A stretch of DNA of 64,000 nucleotides, taken from Occultella kanbiaonis. GTDB lineage: Bacteria > Actinomycetota > Actinomycetes > Actinomycetales > Beutenbergiaceae. A program made the position numbers and the translations under genes. How positions within the stretch are numbered: the first letter of the stretch is position 1; each line of letters begins with the position of its first letter. This document shows, piece after piece, positions 4,495 to 26,833 of the stretch. Location of the stretch: contig NZ_CP046175.1 of NCBI RefSeq assembly GCF_009708215.1, positions 4,526,001 to 4,590,000 of the forward strand. The letters run 5' to 3'. The notes beneath the pieces were generated by a model. It was not told the DNA's origin and searched no databases. It was given only the letters and a program-made list of their open reading frames with translations.

Positions 4495-4592
4495 AGGGTG
4501 GAGCAGCACCAGTCCATCACCGGGGCCATCTTCCTCGAGGACATCGAACCGTCACGGCACCAGCCTGCACGGTGCGCGCGACCCACACACCG

Positions 4593-4598
4593 TAGTAT
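4593..4598 (+). promoter_or_regulatory. Possible -10 element (TAGTAT) upstream of the BY-kinase gene
   Basis: In the 179-base gap after the last glycosyltransferase the best -10 candidate is TAGTAT, which would give a leader of ~70 bases before the GTG start at 4674. No convincing -35 is seen, so this is tentative. Nothing else was recognised in the gap. Confidence 0.3.
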
Positions 4599-4673
4599 GG
4601 GCGGACGTGTCATCCGGCCGGGGTGATGTCATGGCCGGTTGGCTGGATGCAACCCAGTGGGCTTGGAGAATTC

Positions 4674-6257
4674 GTGGATCTGCGGGACTACCTGACACTG
4701 ATCCGAAAGCGTTGGATAGGTGTCGCGATCGTGACGCTCGCTGTTCTCGCCGTCACGTCGATCGTCACCGTCCTGTCCCCGACGAACTACACCGCTCGGA
4801 CTACCATCTTCTTCGCAGTCCAAGGGGGTGGATCCGTGAGCGACCTGGTGCAGGGCTCCACGTATGCCGAGAAGCAGGTGCAGTCGTATGCCGAGGTGGC
4901 CGTCGCTCCCATCGTCCTCGCCCCGGTGATCGACGAACTCGGGCTGAACACCACTGTCGGCGCGCTCGCCCAGCAGGTCACGGCAACAGTTCCGGCCGGA
5001 ACGGTCATCATCGAGATCTCCGTGGTCGATGAGAACCCCAGTCGAGCCGCCGACATCGCCAACGCCATCGGCTCAGAACTCTCTGTTGCAGTCGCCGCAC
5101 TGTCGCCGAGCGGACCGGATGGCGTCGAATCGGTCCGTGCAACCACGATCTCCTCAGCTACCGTACCTGCCGCCCCAAGTTCACCCAACGTCCCACGGAA
5201 CCTGCTGCTGGGAACGCTTCTTGGTGCCGCTCTCGGAGTCGGGCTCGCGATCCTCCGGGAGGTCATGAACACGAAGGTCCGAACGGAGGAGGATGTGTCG
5301 CGGGTCACAGATGCCTCGATCGTCGCCACGATCGGCTTCGACAGCGACGCATCGGCCCATCCACTCATCGTTCAGGCCGATCCGCACTCGGCCAGGGCGG
5401 AGGCATACCGTCGACTGCGCACGAACCTCCAGTTCCTGGACATCGCAGATCGCTCGCATTCCATTGTCATCACTTCGTCCCTACCGGGCGAGGGCAAGTC
5501 GACCACGTCCATCAACCTCGCCATCGCATTGGCGGAGGCCGGCACACGAGTCCTGTTGGTCGACGCAGACCTTCGGCGACCACAGGTGGCGAAGTACATG
5601 CAACTCGAAGGTCGGGTCGGGCTGACAACAGTCCTCATCGGTCGCGCTCAGCTCGCTGACGTGGTTCAGCCATGGGGCGCGGGGAATTTGCATGTCCTCC
5701 CCTCCGGCCGCGTGCCACCGAACCCCAGCGAACTACTGGGTTCAAGTGCGATGGAAACCCTCATGGAGTCAGCCGCTCAGGATTACGACGTGATTCTTCT
5801 CGATGCGCCACCCCTGCTCCCCGTAACAGACAGTGCAGTTCTTGCTGGCAAAGCGGGTGGAGCGCTCGTCGTGATCGGAAGCGACGAGTTGCACCTGAGC
5901 CAACTCGAAGATTCTCTCGAGTCACTGGAAGCAGTCGACACCCGCCTACTGGGTTTGGTGCTGAACAAGGTGCGCAAAATGCACGCTGGAAACTACGTCG
6001 AATACGACTACAGGTCCACCTATGCGTCACATGCGACACGTGGAACGCGAGCGAAGGGCCATAGGAGGCGAGGCAACCCGCGGCGGGCGCCCGAACTGGA
6101 ATCCTCACCTCGGACCACGCACCCTGTCGACGTCCGGGAACCACAATCCGTCGCCAGTGGCTCACACACCACGGGTATTTCCGGAGCCCAGGCACCACCG
6201 ACGATCCCCCCTCGGCGCGCCGGCACCGACGGTAGACGTGGCACGAGCCAGCGCTAG
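4674..6257 (+). CDS. Polysaccharide co-polymerase / BY-kinase (Wzz domain fused to tyrosine kinase)
   Basis: A 527-residue membrane protein that controls polysaccharide polymerisation and export and autophosphorylates on tyrosine. The N-terminal Wzz part has membrane segments at about residues 15-35 and 176-195. The cytoplasmic kinase follows, with Walker A PGEGKST (271-277), Walker A' LLVDADLRRP (around 296-299) and Walker B VILLDAPP (Asp377). A tyrosine cluster (Tyr441, 444, 446, 450) is the usual autophosphorylation site. The protein then continues for ~77 residues in a basic, Pro/Ser/Thr-rich tail without tyrosine, which is unusual for the family. GTG at 4674 is preferred because GGAGAA precedes it; GTG 4623 is an upstream alternative. 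The cognate phosphatase gene follows after 40 bases. Confidence 0.88.
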   Translation: MDLRDYLTLIRKRWIGVAIVTLAVLAVTSIVTVLSPTNYTARTTIFFAVQGGGSVSDLVQGSTYAEKQVQSYAEVAVAPIVLAPVIDELGLNTTVGALAQQVTATVPAGTVIIEISVVDENPSRAADIANAIGSELSVAVAALSPSGPDGVESVRATTISSATVPAAPSSPNVPRNLLLGTLLGAALGVGLAILREVMNTKVRTEEDVSRVTDASIVATIGFDSDASAHPLIVQADPHSARAEAYRRLRTNLQFLDIADRSHSIVITSSLPGEGKSTTSINLAIALAEAGTRVLLVDADLRRPQVAKYMQLEGRVGLTTVLIGRAQLADVVQPWGAGNLHVLPSGRVPPNPSELLGSSAMETLMESAAQDYDVILLDAPPLLPVTDSAVLAGKAGGALVVIGSDELHLSQLEDSLESLEAVDTRLLGLVLNKVRKMHAGNYVEYDYRSTYASHATRGTRAKGHRRRGNPRRAPELESSPRTTHPVDVREPQSVASGSHTTGISGAQAPPTIPPRRAGTDGRRGTSQR

Positions 6258-6297
6258 CCCAGATGTCGACCGCGGCACTCAACCGAGGCATACCGAA

Positions 6298-6876
6298 ATG
6301 ACGAGTCCCGAGCACTTTCCTTTCGCCGTCCTCGTGATGTGCACCGGCAACATCTGCCGGTCCCCCGCCGTCGAACGGCTCCTCACCGCCAGGCTCGACG
6401 CGAGTGTCTACGTGCGCAGCGCAGGCACTCACGCGATGGTGGGTGAGCCGATATCCGCTCCGATGCGACCACTCATCGGGGCCGCCGGGGCCAACCCCGA
6501 CCATTTCGCAGCGCGGCAGGTGACCGAGACGACCGTCCGGCAGGCGGATCTCGTGCTGACCATGACGCGTGAGCATCGGGGCGCGGCCGTGGACCTGTGG
6601 CCGGGGGCCGTGCGCCGCACCTTCACGCTGCGGGAGTATGCCCGGGCGCTCGGGTTCATCGACCTGAGCGAGGTTCCCGCCGGGTTGAGCCAGGGTCAGC
6701 GCCTGGCGGCGGTGACGCCGATGGCCGCGGTGATGCGGGGCCAGGGCCAGCCTCACGACCCGAAGGACGATGACGTGATCGACCCCTACCGGGAGTCGCC
6801 CGAGGTGTACCGGCAGTCGTTCGAGCAGTTCGAACCCGCGGTCCGGACGATCGTCAGGATCGCCCGCGGCGATTGA
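6298..6876 (+). CDS. Low-molecular-weight protein-tyrosine phosphatase (Wzb-like)
   Basis: A 192-residue cytosolic phosphatase expected to dephosphorylate the tyrosine cluster of the neighbouring BY-kinase and so cycle polysaccharide assembly. The P-loop C-x5-R is CTGNICRS with Cys15 as nucleophile and Arg21. The general-acid Asp is in the DPY motif (VIDPYRES) near the C-terminus. The ATG at 6298 is 40 bases after the kinase stop. It is some 30-40 residues longer than a typical family member, with an insertion around residues 115-150. GC rises to the window average here, so this gene may mark the edge of the lower-GC locus. Confidence 0.9.
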   Translation: MTSPEHFPFAVLVMCTGNICRSPAVERLLTARLDASVYVRSAGTHAMVGEPISAPMRPLIGAAGANPDHFAARQVTETTVRQADLVLTMTREHRGAAVDLWPGAVRRTFTLREYARALGFIDLSEVPAGLSQGQRLAAVTPMAAVMRGQGQPHDPKDDDVIDPYRESPEVYRQSFEQFEPAVRTIVRIARGD

Positions 6877-11989: not shown

Positions 11990-13195
11990 TCAGGTCATCG
12001 GCACCGACTCGGCGAGCACCGTCCAGAATGCGTCGATGACCGCCGTCGGGACCGGGGCCGCCCACGCCTCGTTCGTGAGCAGGACCGCGCTCAGCCCGCG
12101 CGCGGTGTCGTTGCGCCAGGCGGACCCGAGGCCACCGTCCCAGCCGTAACTGCCCACGACCGACGGCGTCGGCGTCAGCGCGACGCCGACGCCCAGGCCC
12201 CACCCCGTGCTCCCGTCCGGGCTCGGGCTGTTGGCGGCGAGCTGGGCCTTCGTGAGCCGGTTCGTCGTCATCGCGGCGACGCTGCCCGGCAGGAGCACCC
12301 GGGTCCCGCCGCAGGCGCCGCCGTCGCGGAGCATCGCGCCGAACGCCAGCAGGTCCTCGACCGTCGAGACGAGCCCGGCGTCGCCGCCCTCGAAGGCCGG
12401 CGGCGAGGCCCACTGCCCGTCCGGGGGGTCGTAGACGCCGGCGAACCCGGTCTCGGGATCGGGCGGCCAGAAGCAGGCACCGAACCGCTCGGACTGCTCC
12501 GCCGGAACGCTGAAGCCGGTGTCCCGCATGCCGAGCGGCCCGAGCACCCGGTCGGCCAGCACGCTGCCCAGGGAGGTCCCGGTGGCCCGGCTGATCAGGA
12601 CCCCGAGCACCTCCGCGCCGGTGTTGTACAGCCACCGCTCCCCCGGTTGGTGCCGCAGCGGGAACGTACCGAGCAGCGCAAGCCACTCGTCGGCCGGCAG
12701 GTGTTGCTGCGGCGCCGGTGGGCCGGCGGACAACCCGGCCTCGGTCATCGCCTCGTCCAACGGTGTCGGTGTGCCCATCGTGGTGAAGTCCATCCCGTGC
12801 CCGAGCCGGAACGAGAGCACGTCCTCGACCGTGATCGGGCGCCTCGCGGGCTCGGTCTCCTCGAGCGGGCCGTCGGGTCGGACCAGCACGCGGCGGTCCG
12901 CGAGCTCGGGAAGGAGGTCGTCGACCGGTGCGTCGAGCGCAAGGGTGCCGTCCTCCACCAGGGCGAGCGCGGCGACGGCGGTGACCGGCTTGGTCACGGA
13001 ACTGATCCGGTAGACGGTGTCGGCCGCCGTCGACCGGGTGTGCCCGGCGTCAAGGTGACCGAGTGCGCCGACCTGGCGCTCGCCGTCGACGTCGATGCCC
13101 CAGGTGAGCCCGGGTGGGCTGCCGCCCTCGACGATCGGGGTGAGCGTGGTGGTCAGTGCCTCGGCGGCGCGGTCTGCCATGGTGCGATTGCTCAT
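11990..13195 (-). CDS. Serine hydrolase, beta-lactamase/esterase family
   Basis: A 401-residue class C beta-lactamase-fold hydrolase, probably a cytoplasmic esterase or peptidase because no signal peptide is seen. The S-x-x-K motif is SVTK (Ser66, Lys69) in YRISSVTKP, and the expected catalytic tyrosine is in RWLYNTGAEVLG. The ATG at 13195 is preferred because GGAAGG precedes it by seven bases; an in-frame ATG further upstream (13219) lacks this. The gene is monocistronic in appearance, convergent with ugd. Substrate is unknown. Confidence 0.82.
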   Translation of the reverse strand: MSNRTMADRAAEALTTTLTPIVEGGSPPGLTWGIDVDGERQVGALGHLDAGHTRSTAADTVYRISSVTKPVTAVAALALVEDGTLALDAPVDDLLPELADRRVLVRPDGPLEETEPARRPITVEDVLSFRLGHGMDFTTMGTPTPLDEAMTEAGLSAGPPAPQQHLPADEWLALLGTFPLRHQPGERWLYNTGAEVLGVLISRATGTSLGSVLADRVLGPLGMRDTGFSVPAEQSERFGACFWPPDPETGFAGVYDPPDGQWASPPAFEGGDAGLVSTVEDLLAFGAMLRDGGACGGTRVLLPGSVAAMTTNRLTKAQLAANSPSPDGSTGWGLGVGVALTPTPSVVGSYGWDGGLGSAWRNDTARGLSAVLLTNEAWAAPVPTAVIDAFWTVLAESVPMT

Positions 13196-13365
13196 CGGTG
13201 CCCTTCCGGTGGAGTGCACCCAGACAGACCCGCCGCCGGGCCGGAATTCATCGCTGCTGCCCCGTGCGGCCTCCCCCTCCCGGGTGGCCCTCCTACGGTT
13301 GCGCGACGATGCCGCGGTGGTCGAGACGTCCGCCGTCCCGCCAGGGCTGATGGGTTCGGGCGCGC

Positions 13366-15946: not shown

Positions 15947-16002
15947 CGTCGATGACGGCACACAGCGCGAGCCGGCTGCGAACACCGGCGGCAAGGAGCA
16001 GG

Positions 16003-16896
16003 ATGACCGGCGCAGGTAGCCCAGGTCAGGAGCGGAGCGAGGCAGTCGCGTTCGAGGCGCATCGTCGCTATCTCACGACGGTCGCCTACCGGATGCTCGG
16101 TTCGTTCACGGACGCGGAGGACGCGGTCCAGGAGGCCTGGCTGCGCCTCGAGCGGACCGATCCGACCACCATCGAGAACCTGCGTCCCTGGCTCACTCAG
16201 GTGGTGAGCCGGATCTGCCTGGACGCGCTCCGCTCCCGCGGGCGCCGCCGTGAGGAGCCGCTCGGCGAGGTGCCCGAAGAGCCGGTGACACGCGCCGCCG
16301 ACGACCCGGCGGCGACGGCCGAGATCGCCGACGCGGTCGGCTATGCCCTCATGATCGTGCTCGACCAGCTCTCACCCGACGAGCGTCTCGCCTATGTCCT
16401 GCACGACGTGTTCGGGCTCCCGTTCGGGGACATCGGCGAGGTTCTGGACCGGACCCCGCAGGCGGCACGCAAGCTCGCGAGCCGGGGCCGGGCCCGGATC
16501 CGCGGCACCGAGTCCGGCCGGCAGCTGCGCCGCAGCGGCGCGGACCGGGCCCGGCAGCGCGCGGTGGTGGAGGCGTTCCTCGCGGCCGGCCGGGATGGCA
16601 ACTTCGACGACCTGCTGGCGATCCTGCATCCCGACGTGGTGCTCCGGGTCGACCTGGGCACCGAGGCCGGCGGGGTGCGGATCGTCCGTGGCGCGGCCGA
16701 GGTCGCGAGCGGGGCGAAGCGCCACCGCGTGGGCGCCGCGGATCGCGAGTTCCGGATCGTCGAGATCGCGGACATGTTCGGCGTGCTCACCTACTCAGAC
16801 GGCAGGCCGACCGCGCTCCTCGTCATCACCTCGGAGAACGGCCTGATCACCCACCTGCACGCCCCTGCCTGGCCGCAGGAGGTTATCGAGAACTGA
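16003..16896 (+). CDS. ECF RNA polymerase sigma factor, SigJ/ECF41-like, with SnoaL-like C-terminal domain
   Basis: A 297-residue ECF sigma factor. Region 2 has the typical YLTTVAYRMLGSFTDAEDAV and AWLRLERTDP segments; region 4 is around LSPDERLAYVLHDVFGLPF and DIGEVLDRTPQAARKLASRG. From about residue 170 a SnoaL-like domain (AFLAAGRDGNFDDLLAILHPDV) replaces an anti-sigma partner, as in ECF41 proteins, where this domain tunes activity. The ATG at 16003 follows AAGGAG; an upstream ATG at 15952 is less likely. ECF41 genes commonly sit beside an oxidoreductase they control, as here. Convergent with the racemase gene, overlapping it by 14 bases at the 3' ends. Confidence 0.87.
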   Translation: MTGAGSPGQERSEAVAFEAHRRYLTTVAYRMLGSFTDAEDAVQEAWLRLERTDPTTIENLRPWLTQVVSRICLDALRSRGRRREEPLGEVPEEPVTRAADDPAATAEIADAVGYALMIVLDQLSPDERLAYVLHDVFGLPFGDIGEVLDRTPQAARKLASRGRARIRGTESGRQLRRSGADRARQRAVVEAFLAAGRDGNFDDLLAILHPDVVLRVDLGTEAGGVRIVRGAAEVASGAKRHRVGAADREFRIVEIADMFGVLTYSDGRPTALLVITSENGLITHLHAPAWPQEVIEN

Positions 16897-17542
16897 CGTC
16901 GAGGGCGTCCGCGGCAACCAGGCCCGCGGCCTTGACCGCATCCACCACGGGCAGCCCGGTGGCGGCCCGGACCGGCTCCGCCAGGTTCAGCGTGGTCAGC
17001 CCGGTGCAGGCGAACAGGATCGACGTGGCGCCGGCGTCCCTCAGCTCGGTGGCGGCCTCCACCGCCGCCCGTGCGCCCCACGCCGTGGTCAGTTCGGTGG
17101 TGCGGGTCACCCCGGCGGGCACCCGTGACGCCACGAGCCGGTCGCCGAGCACGGAGGTGACGGACTCGGGCACCTCCTCGGTGATGCCGAGCACCCCGAC
17201 GGCACCGCCCATCGCCAGCGCGCTCGCCGCGCCCGCCGATCCGGCCCCGATGACCGGCACGTCCACGGCCGCCCGGGCCCAGGTGAGGCCCGGGTCGGCG
17301 GCGCACGAGAGGATCACCGCGGCGGCCCCCTCGGCCACCAGGGCTCGGGCCGCTGCGGGCATCTTCTGGGCGGCGGCCGCGAACGTGCGGTCGTCGTGGA
17401 CGCCGTGTGGCTGGTCCGGCAAGCACGCGGTCACGGTGCGGTAGCCGTGGGTCTGCTCCAGCACTCGGCCGTGGGCCTCGAGGAACTCCCAGTCGTCGGA
17501 GGTCACGACGCGGATCACCCCGACGGTCAGTGGCGCGCTCAC
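16883..17542 (-). CDS. Aspartate/glutamate/hydantoin racemase family protein
   Basis: A 219-residue member of the Asp/Glu racemase superfamily. Two cysteines at the expected catalytic places are visible: LSCAADPG and FACTGLTT. The overall length and the pattern (VGVIRVVTSDD at the N-terminus, PVIGAGSAGAASA mid-protein) resemble hydantoin racemase-like enzymes more than glutamate racemase. The GTG start overlaps the AroM stop by four bases, so it is the last gene of the operon that begins with the transporter or M29-like gene. The substrate may be a D/L-amino acid derivative released from the imported compound. Confidence 0.82.
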   Translation of the reverse strand: MSAPLTVGVIRVVTSDDWEFLEAHGRVLEQTHGYRTVTACLPDQPHGVHDDRTFAAAAQKMPAAARALVAEGAAAVILSCAADPGLTWARAAVDVPVIGAGSAGAASALAMGGAVGVLGITEEVPESVTSVLGDRLVASRVPAGVTRTTELTTAWGARAAVEAATELRDAGATSILFACTGLTTLNLAEPVRAATGLPVVDAVKAAGLVAADALDVSSR

Positions 17543-18225
17543 AGCACGGCGCCGAGCAGTCTGGCGGCGACGGAGCGGATGGTCACCACGGTGACGTCCG
17601 GCCCGACGGCGGCGGTCGCCGCCGCGCGCATGGTCTCGTCGAAGCCCATGCAGTCGAGCACGATCAGGTCCGCCTCCGTAGCGAGCGTCGCCGCGGCCGC
17701 GGCGATCGTCTCGACCGTTTCTGTGTACGGGCTCGCCGCGGTGGCCGCGCTCGGGCGCACCCCGATGCTGGCTGCCCAGTGCTCGTATGCCTCGGCGGTC
17801 TGCTCGGGCAGCGGCCGCACCACACCCAGCCGCGCGCCGGGCCCGAACCCGCCGAGCAGGCCCCGGACGCCGTCGTGCGCCAGGCGTTCCACCCCGAACA
17901 GCGGGCGCTCATGCACCAGTGCCGGGAACAGACCGCCGCACATCAGCAGGCTCAGGTCGGCGCCGTCCTGCTCGGCCCGAGTGACGGCCTCCTGCAGCAG
18001 GGGCACCGCGCGGTCGTGACCGAAGACCGCCGAACCACCGTCGCGCAGGCGTGAGGTGAGCGCGGACTCGCCGGGGCGCGGTGCGAGGGCGGCGATCTGT
18101 TCGGCGTCGAGGCCGTCCAGGGCGCCGTACTCGCGGATGTCGTCCGCGGGCAGCACCGGGAGGATCTCGGGGGTGACATCGGTGCGAGGTGCCTGGCCGA
18201 TGGTGATCAGGGCGAGCGTGGTCAT
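17539..18225 (-). CDS. AroM family protein
   Basis: A 228-residue protein with the AroM signature IGQAPRTDV near the N-terminus and LLMCGGLFPAL mid-protein. AroM proteins share the Asp/Glu racemase fold but have no established activity. The two cysteines (MCGG and LDCMGF) sit where racemase catalytic cysteines would be. The gene starts eight bases after the S33 peptidase stop and overlaps the racemase start by four, so two racemase-fold proteins are made together. In other bacteria AroM genes are known beside shikimate genes, but there are none here, so a link to aromatic synthesis is unlikely. Confidence 0.85.
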   Translation of the reverse strand: MTTLALITIGQAPRTDVTPEILPVLPADDIREYGALDGLDAEQIAALAPRPGESALTSRLRDGGSAVFGHDRAVPLLQEAVTRAEQDGADLSLLMCGGLFPALVHERPLFGVERLAHDGVRGLLGGFGPGARLGVVRPLPEQTAEAYEHWAASIGVRPSAATAASPYTETVETIAAAAATLATEADLIVLDCMGFDETMRAAATAAVGPDVTVVTIRSVAARLLGAVL

Positions 18226-18233
18226 GGTTCCCC

Positions 18234-19529
18234 TCAGCGTCGGAGTGTGCGGATGAGCCGGTCGAGCAGGTTGCGGCCGTCCACACGGATTCCGTCGTGC
18301 TGGTAGTCGTTGGTGATGATCGGGCGGAGCCCGCGGATGGCCGCCGCGGTGGCCAGGGAGGTCTGCCGCGGGACGAACATGTCGTCGTGGTAGATCGCCG
18401 CAGCGACCGGGACGGTGTTCTCGGCGAGCACGTCGGGGTCGTACAGGGCGGGCAGGTCCGCACGGCGGGCGAGGAGGTCAGCGGTGTTCCGGAGCGGGAC
18501 CAGGGCCGGGTCCTCCTCGAACTGCCACGGGTAGATGTGCTCGCCGGTGAATCGGAACGGGGCGCCCGGGCCGGCGTCCAGTGCGAACTCGCCGAACTCG
18601 TCCCGGACCCGGTGCGCCGCCCACTGCGTGGCGCCGCCGGTGGCCGCGCCCTGGGCGTAGATGCTCTCGTGCAGCACGGCGTACAGAGGGCGCGGCGCGA
18701 AGCTCAGGGCCCTGCCGACCTCGTCGAGGAACGAGTCGGTCAGCCGGCGGGCGCCGTTGACCGTGGTGAACGGCGACTCCAGGGCGTAATGCAGCGAGTC
18801 GAAGCCGGTCCGGGTGCCAAGGTTGATCCCGAGGGTGCGCAGTCGGCGGGAGCTGAGCCGCTCCCCGGTGGGCAGGATCTCCGCCTCGCCGTCCAGGTGC
18901 GCCGCGACCGCCCGGGCCGTCTGCTCGTCCTGCGGGTGCCGGGCGAAGTACTCCAGGTTGCGGCGGGCGGTGGCGGCATACGTGAGCCGGTAGGTGTCCT
19001 CGACGGGGGTGCGCAGGCCCGGCAGCCCGGCCGTGATCATGGCTTCCCGGATCCCCGCCGGTGCCTGGGAGAGGTAGGCGGTGATGACGAAGCCGCCGAA
19101 GCTCTGCCCGAGCAGCGTCCACGGCGCGTCCCCGATGAGCTCGGTCCGCAGCGCCTCGGCGTCGGCCACGATGGCATCGGCGCGCAGGTGCGACAGGTAC
19201 TGCGCCTGCGCCACCGCGTCCCCGGTGAGGGTCTGCCGGTTCGCCGGCGTCGACCGGCCGGTCCCGCGTTGGTCCAGCAGCAGCACCCGGTAGTCCTCGA
19301 GCGCGCGGTCGAGCCAGCCACCGATCGAGTCCGGCCGGTTGGCCCGGTTACCCGGCCCACCCTGGAACCAGACCAGGTACGGATGGTGGGATCCGCCGTC
19401 GCGCACGATCTCGCGGGCGAACACGTCGATGGTGCCGGGCGTGGCACCGGTGTGGTCGAGCGGGACCTTGAGCTCGTGCTCGCGGACGTCGTGGCCGTCG
19501 ATCCGGTAGCCGGCCGTGGTCAGCGACAT
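18234..19529 (-). CDS. Alpha/beta hydrolase, S33 proline-iminopeptidase-like
   Basis: A 431-residue alpha/beta hydrolase of the proline iminopeptidase (S33) type. It has the oxyanion GGPG (VWFQGGPGNRA), the motif LLLDQRGTGRS typical of S33, the nucleophile elbow GQSFGG and a C-terminal histidine in NDYQHDG. Such enzymes release N-terminal proline or related residues from short peptides. The ATG overlaps the upstream stop (ATGA), which decides the start over longer in-frame options. It lies between the M29-like and AroM genes in a tightly packed operon, consistent with cleavage of an imported peptide. Confidence 0.88.
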   Translation of the reverse strand: MSLTTAGYRIDGHDVREHELKVPLDHTGATPGTIDVFAREIVRDGGSHHPYLVWFQGGPGNRANRPDSIGGWLDRALEDYRVLLLDQRGTGRSTPANRQTLTGDAVAQAQYLSHLRADAIVADAEALRTELIGDAPWTLLGQSFGGFVITAYLSQAPAGIREAMITAGLPGLRTPVEDTYRLTYAATARRNLEYFARHPQDEQTARAVAAHLDGEAEILPTGERLSSRRLRTLGINLGTRTGFDSLHYALESPFTTVNGARRLTDSFLDEVGRALSFAPRPLYAVLHESIYAQGAATGGATQWAAHRVRDEFGEFALDAGPGAPFRFTGEHIYPWQFEEDPALVPLRNTADLLARRADLPALYDPDVLAENTVPVAAAIYHDDMFVPRQTSLATAAAIRGLRPIITNDYQHDGIRVDGRNLLDRLIRTLRR

Positions 19530-20596
19530 CAGTAGCCCTCGACGCCGAGTCTGCGGCAGATCTCGACCAGTTCGGGGTGCACGTAGCGCCCGTCCTCCTC
19601 GATCGGGGTGCCGTCCACGAAGATGCTCGGGGACACCGCGGATCCGTCGGAGTGCGCCGGCGCGACCCACGGTTCGCCGCCGATCCAGGCTCCCTTGGTG
19701 CCGATGCCGAACTCGACGCAGCCGAACACCCGCTCGTCCTCGACGATCCGGCCGGTGGACCGCGTCACGCCGGGGTTGTAGCCGAGCGACCAGTGCGCCA
19801 CCCGGTACATGTTCGGGTCGTTCTGGGCGGCGAGCCAGTTGCGGTAGATCTGGGCATCGCGGCCCTCGCCGGCCACGTCGGTGACCACACCGTCGGCGAC
19901 CGTGAGCGTGATCGGGTTGGCGATCAGCCCGTTGTCGTCCGGCGGCCAGGCGGCGCCGTCGAAGACGATCGTGCCGTTCTGGCTCTCCTCGATCGGGTTC
20001 CAGGAAATCTGCCCCGCGAGCATCACCGACATGCCGGGCTTGTCCGCCGGGATGCCGCGCACGTGGATCGGGCGGTCGCCGGTGCGGCCGGTGATGTCCA
20101 TGCCGTTGGCGGACGTGATCCGGATCTCCTCACCGGCGCTGAGCAGCTCGACGAGCTTGTCCCCCAGCTCGCGGACGCCTGCGTAGTCGACCTTCGCCAC
20201 GGTGTCCACGAGCATCTGCACGTCCAAGCCGGTCAGGCAGGTGTAGCGGGTGCCGCGGGCCATGGCGGCGCGGAACGCGTCCGAGTGCATCAGGTAGCCG
20301 AGTTGGAGCTCGATCCAGACGTCCGCACCGAGGGCGGCGCCGGCGACCGGGGCCGGCGGCTCGATCGCGGAAGCCCACCGGGTCTCGTAACGGACGATCA
20401 CGGGGTGCGCTCCGGCGGCCATCGCCGCGCCGCCGAGCAGGTCGGCGACGCGCATGTCCGAGGACGTGTCTGTGGTGATGAGGACGTTCTCCCCCGGCTT
20501 GACGCACATGATCTCCTCGATCAGTTTGCGTGCGCCGACCATGGCCTCGAAGGACAGATACTCGCTGCGGGACTCGATTCGGTTGGTGACCTCCAT
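19529..20596 (-). CDS. M29 aminopeptidase / NicX-like metalloprotein
   Basis: A 355-residue protein related to M29 aminopeptidases and the homologous ring-cleaving dioxygenase NicX. Possible metal ligands occur in the right order: two glutamates in ISWNPIEESQNG, His and Tyr in VAHWSLGYNPG, and His-x-Asp in VAPAHSDG. The N-terminal half is the Rossmann-like half (GENVLITTDTSSDMRVADLL). Start ATG follows AAGGGAG. Peptidase versus dioxygenase activity cannot be settled by eye; the neighbouring S33 peptidase and OPT transporter favour peptidase. A small inverted repeat (GGCGG and CCGCC) lies in the 71 bases upstream. Confidence 0.75.
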   Translation of the reverse strand: MEVTNRIESRSEYLSFEAMVGARKLIEEIMCVKPGENVLITTDTSSDMRVADLLGGAAMAAGAHPVIVRYETRWASAIEPPAPVAGAALGADVWIELQLGYLMHSDAFRAAMARGTRYTCLTGLDVQMLVDTVAKVDYAGVRELGDKLVELLSAGEEIRITSANGMDITGRTGDRPIHVRGIPADKPGMSVMLAGQISWNPIEESQNGTIVFDGAAWPPDDNGLIANPITLTVADGVVTDVAGEGRDAQIYRNWLAAQNDPNMYRVAHWSLGYNPGVTRSTGRIVEDERVFGCVEFGIGTKGAWIGGEPWVAPAHSDGSAVSPSIFVDGTPIEEDGRYVHPELVEICRRLGVEGY

Positions 20597-20667
20597 GGGT
20601 CACTCCCTTCGTTTGACTTGACGTGACGGCGGAGCCGCCGCGGGGTGGTCGAGGGGCCGGCCGTGCG

Positions 20668-22338
20668 TCAGCGGAAGACGCGGCCGAGGGATGCGAGCGC
20701 GTCACCGGCGATGAGGCCCGCTCCGACGAGGGAGAGTTCCTCCTCCGCCTTGGGGCCCTTGACGTGCCGGACGACCAGACGGACCGCGAGCGCGCCCGCC
20801 ACCAGGAAGCAGGCCCAGGGCACCGAGAGGAGCAGGCCGGTGGCGAGCATGACGCCCATCTGTCGCTTCGGGCCGCCGATGGCCTGGATGAGCGCGCCCG
20901 GGATCGCCCAGATCACCAGGTTGCGCACGGCATCGGGGTCGGTCAGGCCGGCCGTGATGGTGTCCGCGTACACGACCGCCACCGGCGGGATCAGCCCGTC
21001 CTCGAAGTAGGAGCGCCACAGCAGCGCGACCACGACGAGCGCGACGACGAAGCCGACGATCGCCGAGTAGTACTGCTGGCGACGCCCGTCCCGCTCGTAC
21101 GCGTCGTACTGCGGGTGGCGGGAGTGGACCTTGCGGAGCACCCAGCCGGCCTTGAGGTCGTAGCCCATGTCGGCGAACGCCGGCCCGGTGGCCGCGCAGT
21201 ACCCGACCAGCACCACCAGGGGAACCTCCGGGAGCCCGACGACGAGGCCGATCACGAGGAAGATCAGGGTGACCGCGAACGCCGGGAACCAGCCGGAGTG
21301 CATGGCGGCGAGGCCGACGATGATCTCGTGGACGAACGCGGCGAACGCCGCGAACAGGGCCCAGCCGATGATCGCCGGGATGCTCATCTCGGTGACGAGG
21401 CCGGTGATGATGGCCAGCAGCACGGCGCCGGCGAGGAACATCACCACACCGGAGGACAGGGCTCGCCGGAGTTGCCCGGGGGTGACCGAGTCGGCGTCGG
21501 CGGGGTCGGCCGCGGTGGGGTCGGCGGCCGCGGCCTGCGCGGCGGTGTCGTCGCCGGCCCGCTGGGCCTTGCTGCGCCGGTTGCTGAGCAGGACGCCGGC
21601 CTGGATCAGGGCCACGATGCCCGCGCCGATCATGACGCCGTGCGGGATGAACTGACCGCTCAGGGAGAAGTCAGCCAGGCCGGGCAGCAGGGTGATGAAC
21701 TGGTTGACGGCGAGCCCGATGGCGAACATGAACAGGGCGACGACGTTGCCGATCAGGGCCACGCCGGCGGCGGACCCGCTGAGCCCGACCCAGGCCAGCA
21801 CCGCACCGACCACGCCGCCGCCGGCGAGCACGGCGGCGCGCTTGCCGCCCTTGTCACCGGCCTTGATGGTCTCGGCGGCGGCGATACCCGGCGGCCAGGC
21901 TGCGGTGGCCGGCAGGAACCGGGAGCCGAAGCTGCGGTAGAGCACCCAGGAGTCCACACCGAGGCCGACGACAGCGCCGATCAGCAGCGGCCAGACGAGG
22001 TCGATCCGCCCATACGCCCAGCCGATCGCCATCGGGGTCAGCAGCGCGTTCGCGGCGCCGAACGTGGCCGATGAGATCGCGGTCTGGGCCAGGTTCTGCC
22101 GGTTCGTGTCACGGAACTTCCCGAAGAACCCGATACCGATCCGGCCGATCACCATCGCGATCAGCGCGCCCACCACGGAGGTGTTCGCGGAGATGCCGAG
22201 CGTGGTGATCAGGTGCAGGCCGATGTAGGCGCCGAGGACCGAGAGCAGGACGGTGAGGATGAGCGTGGCGGGCGCGAAGGCCCGGGGGTGCACCAGCCGC
22301 TCCTCGGTCGTGGTGCTGGGCGTGGTTCGTTCGGCCAT
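20668..22338 (-). CDS. OPT/YSL family oligopeptide transporter
   Basis: A 556-residue polytopic membrane protein of the OPT family, proton-coupled importers of small peptides or metal chelates. About a dozen hydrophobic segments are visible, starting with ATLILTVLLSVLGAYIGLHL; a charged Ala/Asp-rich cytoplasmic loop (residues ~265-300) separates the two halves; and the C-terminal half has YDLKAGWVLRKVHSRHPQ and AIPGALIQAIGGPKRQMG. The ATG follows AAGGAGG. It lies 43 bases after the IclR gene and 71 bases before the M29-like gene, so it probably brings in the substrate for the following enzymes and is cotranscribed with the regulator. Confidence 0.85.
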   Translation of the reverse strand: MAERTTPSTTTEERLVHPRAFAPATLILTVLLSVLGAYIGLHLITTLGISANTSVVGALIAMVIGRIGIGFFGKFRDTNRQNLAQTAISSATFGAANALLTPMAIGWAYGRIDLVWPLLIGAVVGLGVDSWVLYRSFGSRFLPATAAWPPGIAAAETIKAGDKGGKRAAVLAGGGVVGAVLAWVGLSGSAAGVALIGNVVALFMFAIGLAVNQFITLLPGLADFSLSGQFIPHGVMIGAGIVALIQAGVLLSNRRSKAQRAGDDTAAQAAAADPTAADPADADSVTPGQLRRALSSGVVMFLAGAVLLAIITGLVTEMSIPAIIGWALFAAFAAFVHEIIVGLAAMHSGWFPAFAVTLIFLVIGLVVGLPEVPLVVLVGYCAATGPAFADMGYDLKAGWVLRKVHSRHPQYDAYERDGRRQQYYSAIVGFVVALVVVALLWRSYFEDGLIPPVAVVYADTITAGLTDPDAVRNLVIWAIPGALIQAIGGPKRQMGVMLATGLLLSVPWACFLVAGALAVRLVVRHVKGPKAEEELSLVGAGLIAGDALASLGRVFR

Positions 22339-22381
22339 GGATGGCCTCCTTCATGGGGGGATGCTTGCCGGGGACGCCCGG

Positions 22382-23134
22382 TCAGCTCCGGAGGGTCGCT
22401 CCGATGTCGCTGGCGGCGTGGCGGACGGCGTCGATCAGCTCTGTGGAGCGATCTGCCATGTACTGCGGGGGCCCGAGGGTGGTCACGGATCCGAAGACTG
22501 CTCCCTCGAGCAGGATCGGCGCGGAGATCGCCATGACCCGCTCGTCGAACTCTCCCGTCGAGACGGCGTAGCCGAGGCTGCGAACCTGCTCGTGGCGGGT
22601 CTGGAGCGCGGCCACCTCGACCGCCGGCGGGTCCTCGTCGCCGGCCGCGACCAGGATCTCGCGGGCGTCCAGCACCGTCGAGAACGCGAAGATCGCGTGC
22701 CCGGTGGCGCCGAGGTGGCCGGGGTAGGTGCGCCCGAGCGCGGTGTTGTACCGCACCATGCCCGGACCGTCGACGGCCGCGACCGTGCGGTACCGGGCGC
22801 CGTCGGGCACGCAGACGACCGTGCTCTCGCCAGTGGTGGTCGAGAGCACCGCCAGGTGCGGCTCGAGGCGGTGCCGCACGCCCTCGCTGTGTTCGGCGAG
22901 ATGGCCGAGCACCACGAGGGCCGGGCCGAGGGAGTAGCGCCGGGTGACCGGATCGAGAACGGTGAAACCCTGGGCGGCCAGCGTGGCGAGCACCCGCTGC
23001 GTCTGGGACTTGTCCAGGCCGAGTTCTCGTGCCAGCTCGGAGACGCCTCGCGTCGGGTTTTCGTGGGTGAAGGACCGAAGCACTGCGAGCGCGCGGCCGA
23101 CCGTCTGCAGGTGCCCTGCGTTGGGTGCGGCCAT
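22382..23134 (-). CDS. IclR family transcriptional regulator
   Basis: A 250-residue IclR-type regulator. Residues ~6-65 form the winged helix (VGRALAVLRSFTHENPTRG, SELARELGLDKSQTQRVLATL) and the rest is the effector-binding GAF-like domain (LGRTYPGHLGATGHAIFAF, VSTGEFDERVMAISAPI). ATG at 23134 is chosen because AGGAG precedes it by seven bases; the ORF can extend to 23155. A 20-base palindrome and a good sigma-70-type promoter lie just upstream, so it probably represses its own transcription unit, which includes the transporter. The effector is unknown but is likely the imported compound or a product. Confidence 0.9.
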   Translation of the reverse strand: MAAPNAGHLQTVGRALAVLRSFTHENPTRGVSELARELGLDKSQTQRVLATLAAQGFTVLDPVTRRYSLGPALVVLGHLAEHSEGVRHRLEPHLAVLSTTTGESTVVCVPDGARYRTVAAVDGPGMVRYNTALGRTYPGHLGATGHAIFAFSTVLDAREILVAAGDEDPPAVEVAALQTRHEQVRSLGYAVSTGEFDERVMAISAPILLEGAVFGSVTTLGPPQYMADRSTELIDAVRHAASDIGATLRS

Positions 23135-23155
23135 GCGAAGTCTCCTGTTGCTCAT

Positions 23156-23175
23156 ATCGGGTCGAGCGAACCGAT
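23156..23175 (-). promoter_or_regulatory. Candidate IclR operator (20-bp palindrome)
   Basis: ATCGGGTCGAGCGAACCGAT has 16 of 20 positions symmetrical (ATCGG-N-TCG-NN-CGA-N-CCGAT). It covers the predicted transcription start and touches the -10 of the IclR promoter, the usual place for autorepression. Confidence 0.6.
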
Positions 23176-23202
23176 ACTAGCAACACTCCCACGAGTGTGT
23201 AA
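23174..23202 (-). promoter_or_regulatory. Sigma-70-type promoter of the IclR-OPT operon
   Basis: Reading the minus strand, TTACAC (23202-23197) is followed after exactly 17 bases by TAGTAT (23179-23174). The transcript would start near 23167, 33 bases before the IclR start codon. Confidence 0.6.
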
Positions 23203-23258
23203 CGGCCGGGTTAACGCCGTCGACCGATCTGGACGGCGAGCGCGCCGACTGGACGCGA

Positions 23259-23298
23259 ACGGGGCGGGACCGCGAGCGAACTCGCGATCCCGCCCCGT
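23259..23298 (-). terminator. Strong hairpin terminator after the DUF1177 gene
   Basis: An 11-bp plus 6-bp stem (ACGGGGCGGGA and CGCGAG pairing with CTCGCG and TCCCGCCCCGT) with one mismatch and a CGAA loop. No T-run follows, which is common in high-GC actinobacteria. It separates DUF1177 transcription from the IclR promoter 57 bases further on. Confidence 0.65.
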
Positions 23299-23315
23299 CC
23301 GGCGGCAGTTGGGGC

Positions 23316-24263
23316 TCAGTCGGTGCCGACACCCTGCAGGTGCGTGGCATCCCCGTACAGACGCGTCAGGGTGGCGAACTCCTGCTCGTCGCAGAAGGAC
23401 AGCGAGCCGTCGCCGAACCCCTTCGCGACCTCGAGCGCGTAGCGGGCCGCGAGGGCGATGTCGACCTCATGGCTCGCCCCGGTCGCGGAGCCGGCCACCG
23501 CTGTGACCGCCGTCAGCGCGACACCCACCACCGGCACCTGCGCGGCCACGGCCGGCTGCAGGATCGAGTTGATGTGGTAGAGCCCGTTGGCGTAGGGCGT
23601 GATGTCCTGGGTGGACAGCGGGAACACCTGGGCCGGCTCACCGCAGACGCTCTCGTACACGGAGACCAGGTCCGGGCTGACCGGCAGGATGTAGCCCTGC
23701 CGCACGGTGGGTGAGATCGCGATGCCGCGGTGATTGATGACGCGGTTGCCCTTCGTGGTGTCGATCGAGACGATCGCGTCCATCTCCGGCAGCACCTCGT
23801 TGTCGTTCATGACGCCCATGTCCACGGGCGAGTCCATGAACGGGACCGGCTCGTGCGGACGGGTCGGCGCCCAGGCGCACACGTGCGTGCCGATGATGAC
23901 GTCCCCGGGCAGCCGATCGCCCCGGGCGTACATCTCGACCACCTTCGCCGCGGTGGCCAGGGCCGCCGTCGCCCCGTCTCCGTCGGAGACGTAGCCGATC
24001 CGCTCGGGGCGCGCACCGATCCCGCCGAGGCGCCCGATCACACCGAGGGTGCGGGCGTCCCCGCCCGAGGAGCGCCCATCCGTGCCGGGCACGCGGACGG
24101 TCACGAAGTCGGTGTGGCCCTTGTCGCCCTGCACTCTCGTCACGTCGATGCCGATCGCCTCGACCACGTCGCCGGCGAGGTCGCGCAGGTGCGCGGCGAC
24201 CCGTTCGCCGTCGACGCGCGGGTCGTCGAGGAGGTCGAGGATGGTCAGGACGTGCTTGAGCAT
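23316..24263 (-). CDS. DUF1177 domain-containing protein
   Basis: A 315-residue protein of the DUF1177 family, function unknown. Recognisable stretches are LDLLDDPRVDGERVA at the N-terminus, VQGDKGHTDFVTVRVPG, ERIGYVSDGDGATAAL, PGDVIIGTHVCAWAPTRPH and VSIDTTKGNRVINHRGI. The pattern of His, Asp and Cys in these blocks (THVC, SDGDG) suggests a metalloenzyme, but this is inference. AGGAGC precedes the ATG. It is the first gene on the minus strand of the cluster, has its own terminator, and is divergent from dipeptidase E. DUF1177 genes found next to AroM and OPT genes suggest a shared pathway. Confidence 0.85.
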   Translation of the reverse strand: MLKHVLTILDLLDDPRVDGERVAAHLRDLAGDVVEAIGIDVTRVQGDKGHTDFVTVRVPGTDGRSSGGDARTLGVIGRLGGIGARPERIGYVSDGDGATAALATAAKVVEMYARGDRLPGDVIIGTHVCAWAPTRPHEPVPFMDSPVDMGVMNDNEVLPEMDAIVSIDTTKGNRVINHRGIAISPTVRQGYILPVSPDLVSVYESVCGEPAQVFPLSTQDITPYANGLYHINSILQPAVAAQVPVVGVALTAVTAVAGSATGASHEVDIALAARYALEVAKGFGDGSLSFCDEQEFATLTRLYGDATHLQGVGTD

Positions 24264-24426
24264 GGGGGCTCCTGTTCATCGGTCAAGCGGTTGGCGGCAC
24301 CGGGCGATCGGCCCGGCGCGGCCTCAGACTAACCACCCCGGCCGAGCGGGAGGCCCCACGCCGGGTGCCGCATGCCCGGCCGGAGGTGGCACGATGAACG
24401 GGCCCGACCCCCACCGAGAGGCGACG

Positions 24427-25122
24427 ATGGAACTCCTGCTGCTGTCCAACTCCACGGCCCCGGGCAGGGGCTATCTCGAGCACGCGCAGGACGCGATCGC
24501 CGAGGCGTTCACGGGGGTCGCGCGCATCGGGTTCGTGCCGTTCGCACTCGCCGACCACGACGCCTACACCGCACAGGTCCGCCGTGGGCTGTCCTTCCTC
24601 GACGCCGAGGTGGTGGGCCTGCACGAACGCCCGGACGACCCGTTGGCCGGTCTCGACGCGGTGTTCGTCGGCGGTGGCAACTCGTTCCGGCTCTTGGACC
24701 AGCTGCAGCGGCGCGGCCTCGTCGAGGCGATCCGGGACGCCGTCGCGGGTGGGCTGCGCTACCTCGGCTCGAGCGCGGGCACCAATGTGGCGACCCCGAG
24801 CATCCGGACCACGAACGACATGCCGATCGTGGAGCCGGCCTCGTTCGCGGGCATCGGCCTGGTGCCGTTCCAGATCAATCCGCACTACCTCGACCCGGAC
24901 CCGAGCTCGAGCCATCAGGGCGAGACCCGCGACGAGCGCCTGCAGCAGTACCTGGAGGAGAACGACGTCCCGGTGCTCGCGATGCGGGAGGGCACCTGGC
25001 TGCGCCGCAGCGGCGCCTCGCTCACCCTCGGCGGCGTGGCCACCGGTGCGCGGCTGTACCGCAAGGGCGAGCCGACGGCGGAGGTCACCACGGGCTCGGA
25101 CCTGAGCAGCCTGCTGGGCTGA
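24427..25122 (+). CDS. pepE: Dipeptidase E (S51 peptidase)
   Basis: A 231-residue serine peptidase of family S51; dipeptidase E cleaves N-terminal aspartyl dipeptides in the cytoplasm. The nucleophile elbow is GSSAGTNVA, with VFVGGGNSFRLLDQL before it and the histidine in INPHYLDPDP after it. The ATG at 24427 follows GAGAGG; an ATG at 24394 is an alternative. It faces away from the DUF1177 gene across a 163-base gap in which I see only a weak TAGTCT box for DUF1177. Its function fits the peptide-degrading theme of the neighbouring cluster. Confidence 0.88.
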   Translation: MELLLLSNSTAPGRGYLEHAQDAIAEAFTGVARIGFVPFALADHDAYTAQVRRGLSFLDAEVVGLHERPDDPLAGLDAVFVGGGNSFRLLDQLQRRGLVEAIRDAVAGGLRYLGSSAGTNVATPSIRTTNDMPIVEPASFAGIGLVPFQINPHYLDPDPSSSHQGETRDERLQQYLEENDVPVLAMREGTWLRRSGASLTLGGVATGARLYRKGEPTAEVTTGSDLSSLLG

Positions 25123-25177
25123 GTGGGGTCGCACACACCCCAACGCAATCGGCGCGGACGTGGTGGAGAATGGAAGG

Positions 25178-26833
25178 ATGCCTGATGGCCCCCTGATCGT
25201 TCAGTCCGACAAGTCCCTCCTCCTCGAGATCGACCACGAACTGGCCGGCCCGTGCCGCCGCGCCATCGCTCCGTTCGCGGAGCTCGAGCGCGCGCCCGAG
25301 CACATCCACACCTACCGGCTGACCCCGCTCGGGCTCTGGAACGCGCGCGCCGCCGGCCATGATGCCGAGCAGGTCATCAACACCCTGCTCGAGTACTCCC
25401 GCTACCCGGTGCCGCACAACCTGCTGGTCGACATCGCCGAGACGATGTCCCGGTACGGTCGGCTCCAGCTGACCACCCACCCGGCGCACGGGCTCGTGCT
25501 CACCGCCACCGACGTCCCGGTGCTGGAGGAGGTGCTGAAGTCCAAGCGCACCGCCGGCCTGGTCGGTGCCCGGCTGGACGCCAGCACCGTGGTGGTGCAT
25601 CCCAGCGAGCGCGGCCACCTCAAGCAGGTCCTGGTCAAGCTCGGCTGGCCCGCCGAGGATCTGGCCGGCTACGTGGACGGCGAGGCCCACGAGATCGGCC
25701 TCGAGGAGAACGGGTGGGCCATGCGCACCTACCAGAGCGAGGCCGTCGAGAGCTTCTGGCACGGCGGTTCCGGCGTGGTGGTGCTGCCCTGCGGCGCCGG
25801 CAAGACCATCGTCGGTGCCGGGGCCATGGCGCAGTCCGGCACCACCACCCTGATCCTGGTCACGAACACCGTCAGCGCCCGCCAGTGGCGCGACGAGCTG
25901 GTCAAGCGCACCACCCTCACCGAGGACGAGATCGGTGAGTACTCCGGCTCCCGCAAGGAGGTCAAGCCGGTCACGATCGCGACGTATCAGGTGCTGACCA
26001 CGCGCCGCAAGGGCGTGTACACGCACCTGGAACTGCTCGACGCGCGCGACTGGGGCCTGATCCTCTACGACGAGGTGCACCTGCTGCCGGCGCCGATCTT
26101 CCGGATGACGGCGGACCTGCAGGCACGCCGTCGGCTCGGCCTGACCGCCACCCTGGTGCGCGAGGACGGCCGCGAGGACGAGGTGTTCTCCCTGATCGGG
26201 CCGAAGCGTTACGACGCGCCGTGGAAGGACATCGAGGCGCAGGGCTACATCGCTCCGGCCGAGTGCGTCGAGGTCCGGCTCGACATGCCGCACCACGCCC
26301 GGATGGCGTACGCCGTCGCCGAGCCGGAGGACCGGTACCGGATGGCGGCGACGGCGAAGGGCAAGCTGGACGTGGTGCGTCAGTTGGTCGCCAAGCACGA
26401 CGGCGAGCAGATCCTGATCATCGGCCAGTACCTCGACCAGCTCGAAGAGCTCGGCGAGAAGGTCGGCGCCCCCGTCATCACCGGCGCCACCACCGTGCCG
26501 GAGCGGCAGCGCCTGTTCGCCGCGTTCCGCACCGGGGAGATCACCACGCTCGTGGTGAGCAAGGTCGCGAACTTCTCGATCGACCTACCCGAGGCCGCCG
26601 TCGCGATCCAGGTGTCCGGGTCGTTCGGGTCCCGCCAGGAGGAGGCCCAGCGCCTCGGCCGGGTGATGCGCCCCAAGGCCGACGGGCGCACCGCCCACTT
26701 CTACGCCGTCGTCACCCGGGACACGGTGGACCAGGACTTCGCCGCCCACCGGCAGCGGTTCCTGGCCGAGCAGGGCTACGCCTACTCGATCATCGACGCC
26801 GAGGACCTCGCGCCCGTCGAGGACGCCGGCTGA
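25178..26833 (+). CDS. DNA repair helicase XPB
   Basis: A 551-residue bacterial XPB-type superfamily 2 helicase, a 3'-5' ATP-dependent DNA unwinding enzyme. Residues 1-170 form the damage-recognition-like N-terminal domain (DHELAGPCRRAIAPFAELE). Motif I is PCGAGKT (Lys209), motif II DEVH (298-301), and the XPB-specific RED motif occurs in REDGRED. Motifs V-VI are in VVSKVANFSIDLPEA and QRLGRVMRPKADG. The ATG is set by GGAAGG. Its usual partner protein is encoded at 8277; the 14.6 kb between the two looks like an insertion compared with mycobacteria. Confidence 0.93.
   Translation: MPDGPLIVQSDKSLLLEIDHELAGPCRRAIAPFAELERAPEHIHTYRLTPLGLWNARAAGHDAEQVINTLLEYSRYPVPHNLLVDIAETMSRYGRLQLTTHPAHGLVLTATDVPVLEEVLKSKRTAGLVGARLDASTVVVHPSERGHLKQVLVKLGWPAEDLAGYVDGEAHEIGLEENGWAMRTYQSEAVESFWHGGSGVVVLPCGAGKTIVGAGAMAQSGTTTLILVTNTVSARQWRDELVKRTTLTEDEIGEYSGSRKEVKPVTIATYQVLTTRRKGVYTHLELLDARDWGLILYDEVHLLPAPIFRMTADLQARRRLGLTATLVREDGREDEVFSLIGPKRYDAPWKDIEAQGYIAPAECVEVRLDMPHHARMAYAVAEPEDRYRMAATAKGKLDVVRQLVAKHDGEQILIIGQYLDQLEELGEKVGAPVITGATTVPERQRLFAAFRTGEITTLVVSKVANFSIDLPEAAVAIQVSGSFGSRQEEAQRLGRVMRPKADGRTAHFYAVVTRDTVDQDFAAHRQRFLAEQGYAYSIIDAEDLAPVEDAG

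Follow-up and report, generated by a model that had tools for sequence, protein, structure and literature searches.

A DUF1177-centred gene cluster of Occultella kanbiaonis as a possible catabolic module for cyclic dipeptides

2,5-Diketopiperazines (cyclic dipeptides) are abundant, bioactive and resistant to peptidases. Their degradation has been described for organisms and activities: in the available sections of PMC3852281 (2013), cyclo(Asp-Phe) is degraded by a Streptomyces (S. flavovirens, inducible) and by a Paenibacillus, none of eleven diketopiperazines is cleaved by 15 ordinary peptidases, the route for cyclo(Gly-Leu) consists of a hydrolase followed by a dipeptidase, and the enzymes of the first degradation step are stated to be unclear. 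In PMC11055893 (2024), as far as its available text goes, hydantoin racemases, DUF917 and AroM proteins, OPT and peptide ATP-binding cassette (ABC) transporters and peptidases are overrepresented near genes that resemble cyclodipeptide oxidases and lie outside biosynthetic clusters; a role in purine metabolism or in secondary metabolites is suggested there. Here, a cluster built around DUF1177 was analysed that is located at 16883–24263 of a 64,000-nucleotide stretch of the Occultella kanbiaonis genome (5.65 Mb; contig NZ_CP046175.1, positions 4,526,001 to 4,590,000), referred to below as the window. The cluster was tentatively assigned to the catabolism of cyclic dipeptides, or of cyclic amides closely related to them, an assignment that we regard as plausible yet short of probable.

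A first-pass annotation had listed seven same-strand genes and had ended the cluster at DUF1177. All seven open reading frames are present on the reverse strand, with families that match the earlier labels except for M29; the boundary was set too early, given that a divergent PepE gene, which is part of the gene set, had been omitted. From low to high coordinate the order is racemase, AroM, S33-like, M29/NicX-like, OPT, IclR, DUF1177 and PepE, and the features are as follows:

16883–17542, reverse strand: Asp/Glu/hydantoin racemase-family protein (PF01177, E 1e-20)
17539–18225, reverse strand: AroM-family protein with racemase fold (PF07302, E 1e-62)
18234–19529, reverse strand: alpha/beta hydrolase, S33 proline-iminopeptidase-like, 431 amino acids (PF00561, PF12146)
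19529–20596, reverse strand: M29/NicX-like putative metalloenzyme (7cn3, E 4e-7; without Pfam match)
20668–22338, reverse strand: OPT-family transporter (PF03169, E 2e-21)
22382–23155, reverse strand: IclR-family regulator (PF09339 and PF01614)
23156–23175, no strand assigned: imperfect 20-bp palindrome, candidate operator (8 of 10 pairs)
23242–23315, reverse strand: long GC-rich stem-loop 3′ of the DUF1177 stop (−58.1 kcal/mol, z −7.2 vs. shuffles)
23316–24263, reverse strand: DUF1177 protein with predicted zinc-exopeptidase fold (PF06675, E 5e-125)
24427–25122, forward strand: PepE alpha-aspartyl dipeptidase (S51), divergent from DUF1177 (NCBIfam PRK05282 equivalog)

The M29-like, S33-like, AroM and racemase reading frames overlap or lie no more than 8 bp apart; the spacing is 71 bp at OPT, 43 bp at IclR and 160 bp between DUF1177 and IclR. 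The S33-like reading frame can be extended to 19670, and the IclR gene contains a second in-frame ATG at 23134 with AGGAGA just before it.

PF01177, PF07302, OPT, Opp-type ABC importers, DUF917 and peptidases are common to the DUF1177 loci and to the cyclodipeptide-oxidase-associated clusters without a cyclodipeptide synthase that are described in the available text of PMC11055893. Those clusters are centred on nitroreductases like those of the cyclodipeptide oxidases, whereas a related nitroreductase was found in only three of the fetched DUF1177 loci; neither CDOA (nitroreductase) nor CDOB (PF19585) is among the nine window proteins scanned (15952–25122), and the term DUF1177 is absent from the main text of that paper. 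The hydantoin-utilisation (hyu) clusters contain the same racemase superfamily, and HyuA/HyuB, an NCS1 permease (NCS1 being the family of the hydantoin transporter Mhp1) and a nitrilase-family protein occur in some other DUF1177 loci; unlike hyu clusters, the scanned window genes encode PepE, S33, M29-like and OPT proteins and no hydantoinase or carbamoylase. Streptomyces, Paenibacillus and Microbacterium are found both among the diketopiperazine degraders and among the carriers of DUF1177, and in the available sections of PMC3852281 no gene is assigned to the hydrolysing activity, in contrast to the sequence-defined DUF1177 cluster. The open-licence PMC literature, searched mostly by titles and abstract starts, yielded no paper on this pathway and a single one for DUF1177, which by its title deals with fungal DUF1996 proteins; PMC12746152, considered as related work, was set aside as unrelated (riboflavin catabolism, judged from the part available). 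The earlier description of the cluster as undescribed therefore applies to the DUF1177-centred module and to its link with PepE, and not to the association of AroM, racemase, DUF917, OPT and peptidases, which stand together in PMC11055893 already. New here are the definition of the module around DUF1177, the fold predicted for this protein together with the change in its site, the connection to PepE and the prediction of cyclo(Asp-X), and the whole looks like an undescribed modular pathway made of known kinds of parts.

Recurrence was determined from a contig scan that gave at least 590 DUF1177 relatives, of which the best 80 were kept; this selection favours close relatives and has DUF1177 in every locus by construction. 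Co-occurrence was counted in the 59 of these 80 loci with full 9-kb flanks (the 21 others being left out), and adjacency within 250 bp was counted for 96 DUF1177 genes from the 80 scan loci and 14 others. Fetched loci are labelled L and genomes G. The families of the cluster recur together beyond chance in Actinomycetota, Bacillota, Pseudomonadota, Synergistota and a haloarchaeon; the lack of co-occurrence that the first-pass annotation had named as its refutation was not observed. By profile, the 59 loci contain IclR (40), AroM (36), PepE (30), ArgE/DapE-type M20 (28), OPT (25), racemase (21), NCS1 (20), M29-like (18), DUF917 (16), PucR (16) and peptide-ABC binding (13) proteins, with HyuA (6), S33 (3), nitrilase (2), HyuB (2) and nitroreductase (2) as rarer partners. 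Downstream of the 96 DUF1177 genes, AroM was found 28 times, NCS1 19 times, ArgE 14 times, an ABC ATPase 11 times and OPT 6 times; the upstream neighbour was DUF917 in 21 cases. Of the 59 loci, 54 have an importer of the OPT, peptide-ABC or NCS1 type (OPT or peptide-ABC in 35). On a tree of 73 DUF1177 proteins the state changes numbered 13 for racemase, 11 for OPT, 10 for ABC, 8 for NCS1, 5 for PepE and 5 for AroM. One transporter type has thus repeatedly given way to another, with an importer of some kind retained, and it is mainly for this reason that DUF1177 is read as part of an uptake-and-breakdown pathway. This recurrence supports the earlier view that the set serves to import and degrade a small compound of peptide-like nature and that two racemase-fold proteins take part.

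The arrangement of the window is repeated in L018 and L098, and in L019 without PepE within the stretch. Near-identical arrangements were seen in L101 (another genus of the family), where the racemase was not found, and in L023 of Nocardioides insulae, where neither AroM nor racemase was found and whose genome (G356) gave no AroM match. In two further loci of the same family (L099, L100), PepE, IclR, DUF1177 and AroM are kept, and an ABC importer and an ArgE-type deacylase replace OPT, M29 and S33. DUF1177 is distributed patchily: it was found in 4 of 4 genomes of the genus, in 3 of 20 other family members and in 0 of 35 other members of the order, and in 7 of 296 Actinomycetota genomes overall, 5 of these 296 having an AroM match (4 over the cut-off, 3 strong). 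Among plasmid records, seven carry DUF1177 and seven AroM; the five that carry both (Paenibacillus, Niallia, Sodalis, Klebsiella and the haloarchaeon Salinigranum) have the two genes adjacent. Planococcus glaciei is the source of both plasmids that have DUF1177 and no AroM. Conversely, AroM occurs in the absence of DUF1177 on a Shinella and a Neorhizobium plasmid, which encode HyuA and a DUF917 protein (in Neorhizobium by phmmer match only), together with an OPT and/or a peptide ABC importer. Plasmid presence and the patchiness within the family point to some mobility of the cluster. Cross-phylum transfer as the main explanation of its spread was unsupported, the DUF1177 tree requiring five phylum changes against a minimum of four (counted over the 59 rows whose phylum is named; another 14, including plasmid and archaeal ones, were not counted), and no phage record matched DUF1177 at E 1e-5.

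On the Klebsiella pneumoniae plasmid (L011), which is typed as conjugative, a compact IclR-OPT-DUF1177-AroM-PepE-racemase set lies between transposase genes; no near relative of it was found in 20,395 E. coli records by megablast, the only search used. Two DUF1177 genes stand side by side, in an ABC-type and an OPT-DUF917-type cluster, in Leucobacter chinensis (L047, positions 452 and 8995) and in Alkalihalobacillus sp. BA299 (L072, positions 8995 and 17358). A genome of the same order without DUF1177 (G310) contains an AroM-IclR-OPT-DUF917 cluster (L102), in which DUF917 may do the job of DUF1177. PepE was never found with DUF917 in the 59 loci (p 6e-7) and only twice with M29 (p 5e-5); the idea that these pairs mark interchangeable routes was dropped after a tree test, in which just four supported independent contrasts were available and neither pair came near significance. 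These locus types may follow lineages.

The proposed pathway would start with import of the compound by the OPT transporter, for which an Opp/Dpp-type ABC importer or an NCS1 permease would stand in elsewhere. AroM and the hydantoin-racemase-like protein would invert an alpha-carbon, either in the ring or in the product, by two-cysteine proton transfer; DUF1177, with a zinc-exopeptidase fold and an altered metal site, would open the ring to the linear dipeptide; PepE, possibly together with the S33 and M29-like enzymes, would split this dipeptide, PepE implying an N-terminal Asp; and the IclR protein would repress the IclR-OPT-M29-S33-AroM-racemase unit. The gene set, its recurrence, the predicted folds, the conserved cysteines and the family membership of PepE come directly from the analysis. 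From the neighbours and the fold we infer hydrolysis of a diketopiperazine to a dipeptide; the substrate, the activity of DUF1177, the order of the steps and the regulation are proposed on the same conditional footing. The partners comprise dipeptide and acyl-amino-acid proteins, cyclic-amide enzymes, racemase-fold proteins and importers, and a cyclic dipeptide would suit all of them at once, because it is a cyclic amide, has invertible alpha-carbons and gives a dipeptide on opening. For the PepE-type clusters a cyclo(Asp-X) substrate is predicted. The literature and partner evidence for cyclic dipeptides is circumstantial, and the full proposal, with DUF1177 as a bacterial and archaeal cyclic-dipeptide hydrolase, AroM and the hydantoin-type racemase as cyclic-dipeptide epimerases and PepE coupled to them for cyclo(Asp-X), is doubtful though quite conceivable. 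It makes DUF1177 a sequence-defined candidate for the first step of diketopiperazine degradation, and the cluster offers a testable role for AroM.

The predicted model of DUF1177 adopts the zinc-exopeptidase fold (M28/M20/M42, M17), which places at the level of fold a domain of unknown function that occurs in Bacteria and Archaea. Among the fold matches shown, most are exopeptidases or deacylases, the others being transferrin receptors and a 5-nitroanthranilate aminohydrolase. A sequence search with DUF1177 against solved structures gave no match, and a profile search gave E 0.12 at best (chance matches to ribosomal and RNase P proteins). DUF1177 differs from the zinc exopeptidases M28/M20/M42 (clan MH) and M17 in that the ligands are largely replaced and no similarity was found at the sequence level. 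The first-pass annotation had listed DUF1177 as having no known activity; the protein now has a predicted fold.

Both racemase-fold proteins have the fold and the two catalytic cysteines of the Asp/Glu/hydantoin racemase superfamily. In the racemase, Cys80 and Cys179 are invariant in 30 of 30 aligned rows (rows shorter than 150 amino acids were left out), and the closest solved relative is the Pyrococcus “hydantoin racemase” 2eq5 (E 1e-51). In AroM, Cys96 and Cys192 are invariant in 52 of 52 rows; a profile search reached 2eq5 at E 0.009, the profiles of AroM and the racemase could be aligned over no more than 21 columns, near a single cysteine in either protein, and the link to the racemase required model comparison. 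Matches of the AroM model include a structure titled OpaE, an atypical member of the Asp/Glu-racemase family. OpaE is an epimerase that inverts an amino-acid residue within a fused ring, according to the available part of PMC7530659. AroM was named in a 1986 paper and is experimentally uncharacterised according to the available text of PMC11055893. In the 59 loci the racemase never occurs without AroM (21 loci with both), and tree-independent pairs run in the same direction without reaching significance. In Scopulibacillus darangshiensis (L088, approximately 12614–13272) the AroM gene is in two neighbouring pieces, a likely frameshift. A related protein of approximately 277 amino acids is encoded near AroM in L070 (9762–10841), L075 (9950–10780) and L097 (10641–11474), the L097 copy having no Pfam match.

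PepE belongs to S51: it scores 269 bits against the NCBIfam equivalog cut-off of 156 bits, it matches the solved alpha-aspartyl dipeptidase 7c9b at E 2e-62, and GSSAGTN and INPHYLDPD, the motif regions in which the Ser and the His have their roles, are identical. Its specificity is presumably for N-terminal Asp, in agreement with the name of the PDB entry. Of 149 genomes of the phylum, 3 have a PepE over the cut-off and 31 have weaker S51 matches. The M29 part of the M29/NicX-like label is weak: neither the NCBIfam models (at E 0.01) nor those of Pfam (at E 5), PF02073 (M29) included, were matched by the protein, and its sole credible solved match is 7cn3, a 2,5-dihydroxypyridine 5,6-dioxygenase of the NicX type; all other structures matched were designed ankyrin repeats, with E values of 0.006 or worse. 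PF02073 is matched, however, by the homologue from the archaeal cluster. In the alignment with the window protein, E203, E286, H315 and D317 are each kept in at least 28 of the 29 rows. For the S33-like hydrolase, the solved relative 8jgn (Arabidopsis AT3g61540, E 9e-102) is far closer than the proline iminopeptidases (1azw, E 1e-6; others worse); no paper giving the activity of At3g61540 was found in the open-licence PMC literature.

Several observations weigh against cyclic dipeptides and against hydrolysis by DUF1177. The metal ligands of M28 are His, Asp, Glu-Glu, Asp and His. In DUF1177, mapped onto these by strand order rather than by coordinates, most are replaced: the first His is Arg78 (47 of 47 rows), the Glu-Glu pair is His127-[VI]-Cys129 (Cys in 45 of 47) and the last His, His265, is kept in only 42 of 47; Asp94 and Asp168 are each kept in all 47. 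The Foldseek TM-scores are just 0.47–0.52 on the query among the rows shown, the DUF1177 profile has no similarity to that of the cluster's M20 proteins (only three M20 rows of low diversity), and to our knowledge neither DUF1177 nor AroM has a known activity. The fold includes non-enzymes, the transferrin receptors, so that on the model DUF1177 may be no hydrolase. AroM is dispensable, since 23 of the 59 loci are without it and it is rarely found with DUF1177 in the phylum (of the seven DUF1177 genomes only that of the window has a clear AroM, G196 having a weak match approximately 317 kb away). The cyclic-amide enzymes are a minority (DUF917 in 16, HyuA in 6, HyuB in 2 and nitrilase in 2 of the 59 loci). 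The PucR regulators and NCS1 permeases (16 and 20 loci) would be compatible with ureides, hydantoins or nucleobase-like compounds too; two NCS1 permeases that were scanned came nearest to cytosine permease, below the cut-off. The nitroreductases of L012, L073 and L076 list no CDOB domain (PF19585), the small reading frames beside them lying outside the scan.

These points leave room for other readings. The substrates could be linear small peptides or N-acyl amino acids, with DUF1177 as a new aminopeptidase, dipeptidase or deacylase and the racemases making D-residues usable. The prevalence of exopeptidases and deacylases among the fold matches favours this, as do the peptide and acyl-amino-acid families around DUF1177 (OPT/Opp-type ABC importers in 35 of 59 loci, PepE, ArgE/DapE-type M20, M29); with the canonical ligands lost, and with the DUF917, HyuA, NCS1 and nitrilase partners and the paired racemase-fold proteins left unexplained, we consider it rather unlikely. 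The substrate class given first, a short peptide or modified amino acid, was narrowed: the peptide-like character stands, and in place of a plain short peptide the cyclic-amide partners and NCS1 suggest a cyclic amide. Such an amide could be a hydantoin, ureide or other five-ring imide, or the substrate an N-carbamoyl amino acid (aminosuccinimide-type damaged aspartyl compounds included), with DUF1177 acting on the ring or on the carbamoyl or imide product. The racemase has its nearest relative in a “hydantoin racemase”, NCS1 and PucR-type regulators occur in 20 and 16 of the 59 loci, another Actinomycetota family (f42) combines DUF1177 and an M29-like protein with DUF917-HyuA-nitrilase and NCS1 (L104, L105 and L106; L103 without the last two), and the Shinella and G310 clusters have DUF917 with OPT and AroM and without DUF1177. 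DUF917 is, however, absent from all 30 PepE loci, 35 of the 59 loci have OPT or peptide-ABC importers, and no hydantoinase or carbamoylase family is among the nine window proteins scanned, which makes hydantoins and their relatives clearly improbable. A further reading is that a metallophore derived from amino acids, or an opine-like conjugate, is taken up and recycled, with OPT as a YSL-like importer of metal chelates and the hydrolases freeing amino acids. It would draw on the YSL members of the transporter family (OPT/YSL in the plasmid records) and is very unlikely, very different importers (ABC, NCS1) taking the place of OPT and no metal-uptake or storage gene being seen in the annotated plasmid neighbourhoods (L015 carries no annotation) apart from a “peptide/nickel” family label on one ABC importer. 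A loose co-location of unrelated amino-acid genes with no common pathway would agree with the occurrence of AroM and DUF1177 each without the other, and among control genomes with AroM only in E. coli, DUF1177 only in Sulfolobus acidocaldarius and both in Haloferax volcanii. It is hardly credible given that five of seven plasmid DUF1177 genes adjoin AroM (Bacillota, Enterobacterales and a haloarchaeon), and that AroM lies directly downstream of 28 of 96 DUF1177 genes with at most two AroM matches per genome in ten genomes searched.

Control by IclR, as first assumed for the whole cluster, found a candidate site at the start of the IclR gene and none at DUF1177 and PepE, and a strong hairpin sets DUF1177 apart. 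The palindrome reads ATCGGTTCGCTCGACCCGAT and stands immediately 5′ of the first IclR ATG. Its pattern, matched with up to three mismatches, occurs only here in the window (0.27 expected) and as a single exact site in the genome; it was derived from this very site, and its uniqueness is therefore no independent test. By eye, it is kept with 0–1 change in three Occultella loci (L018, L019, L098) and was not seen in L101; as these three are close relatives, the conservation is weak evidence, and the palindrome is a candidate operator at which IclR would control the unit that runs from its own gene to the racemase. No site of this type was found in the divergent DUF1177/PepE region (approximately 160 bp, conserved in L018 and L098), and IclR control of DUF1177 and PepE is thus unproven. 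A promoter scan of 16600–25300 gave no sigma-70-type match. The stem-loop directly 3′ of the DUF1177 stop exceeds in length every other inverted repeat of the window whose arms are separated by at most 200 bp. A T run is lacking, the terminator scan does not list the stem-loop, and by eye its stem is kept in L018 and L098 and not in L019. It may act as a terminator and would then separate DUF1177 from IclR.

Away from the cluster, the GC content of the first part of the window (1–6300) is 0.62–0.65 up to position 6000, compared with approximately 0.72 elsewhere, and apparent glycosyltransferases and a protein resembling chain-length determinants and tyrosine kinases are encoded there. With families assigned by eye from the translations, this region looks like an exopolysaccharide locus that was possibly acquired.

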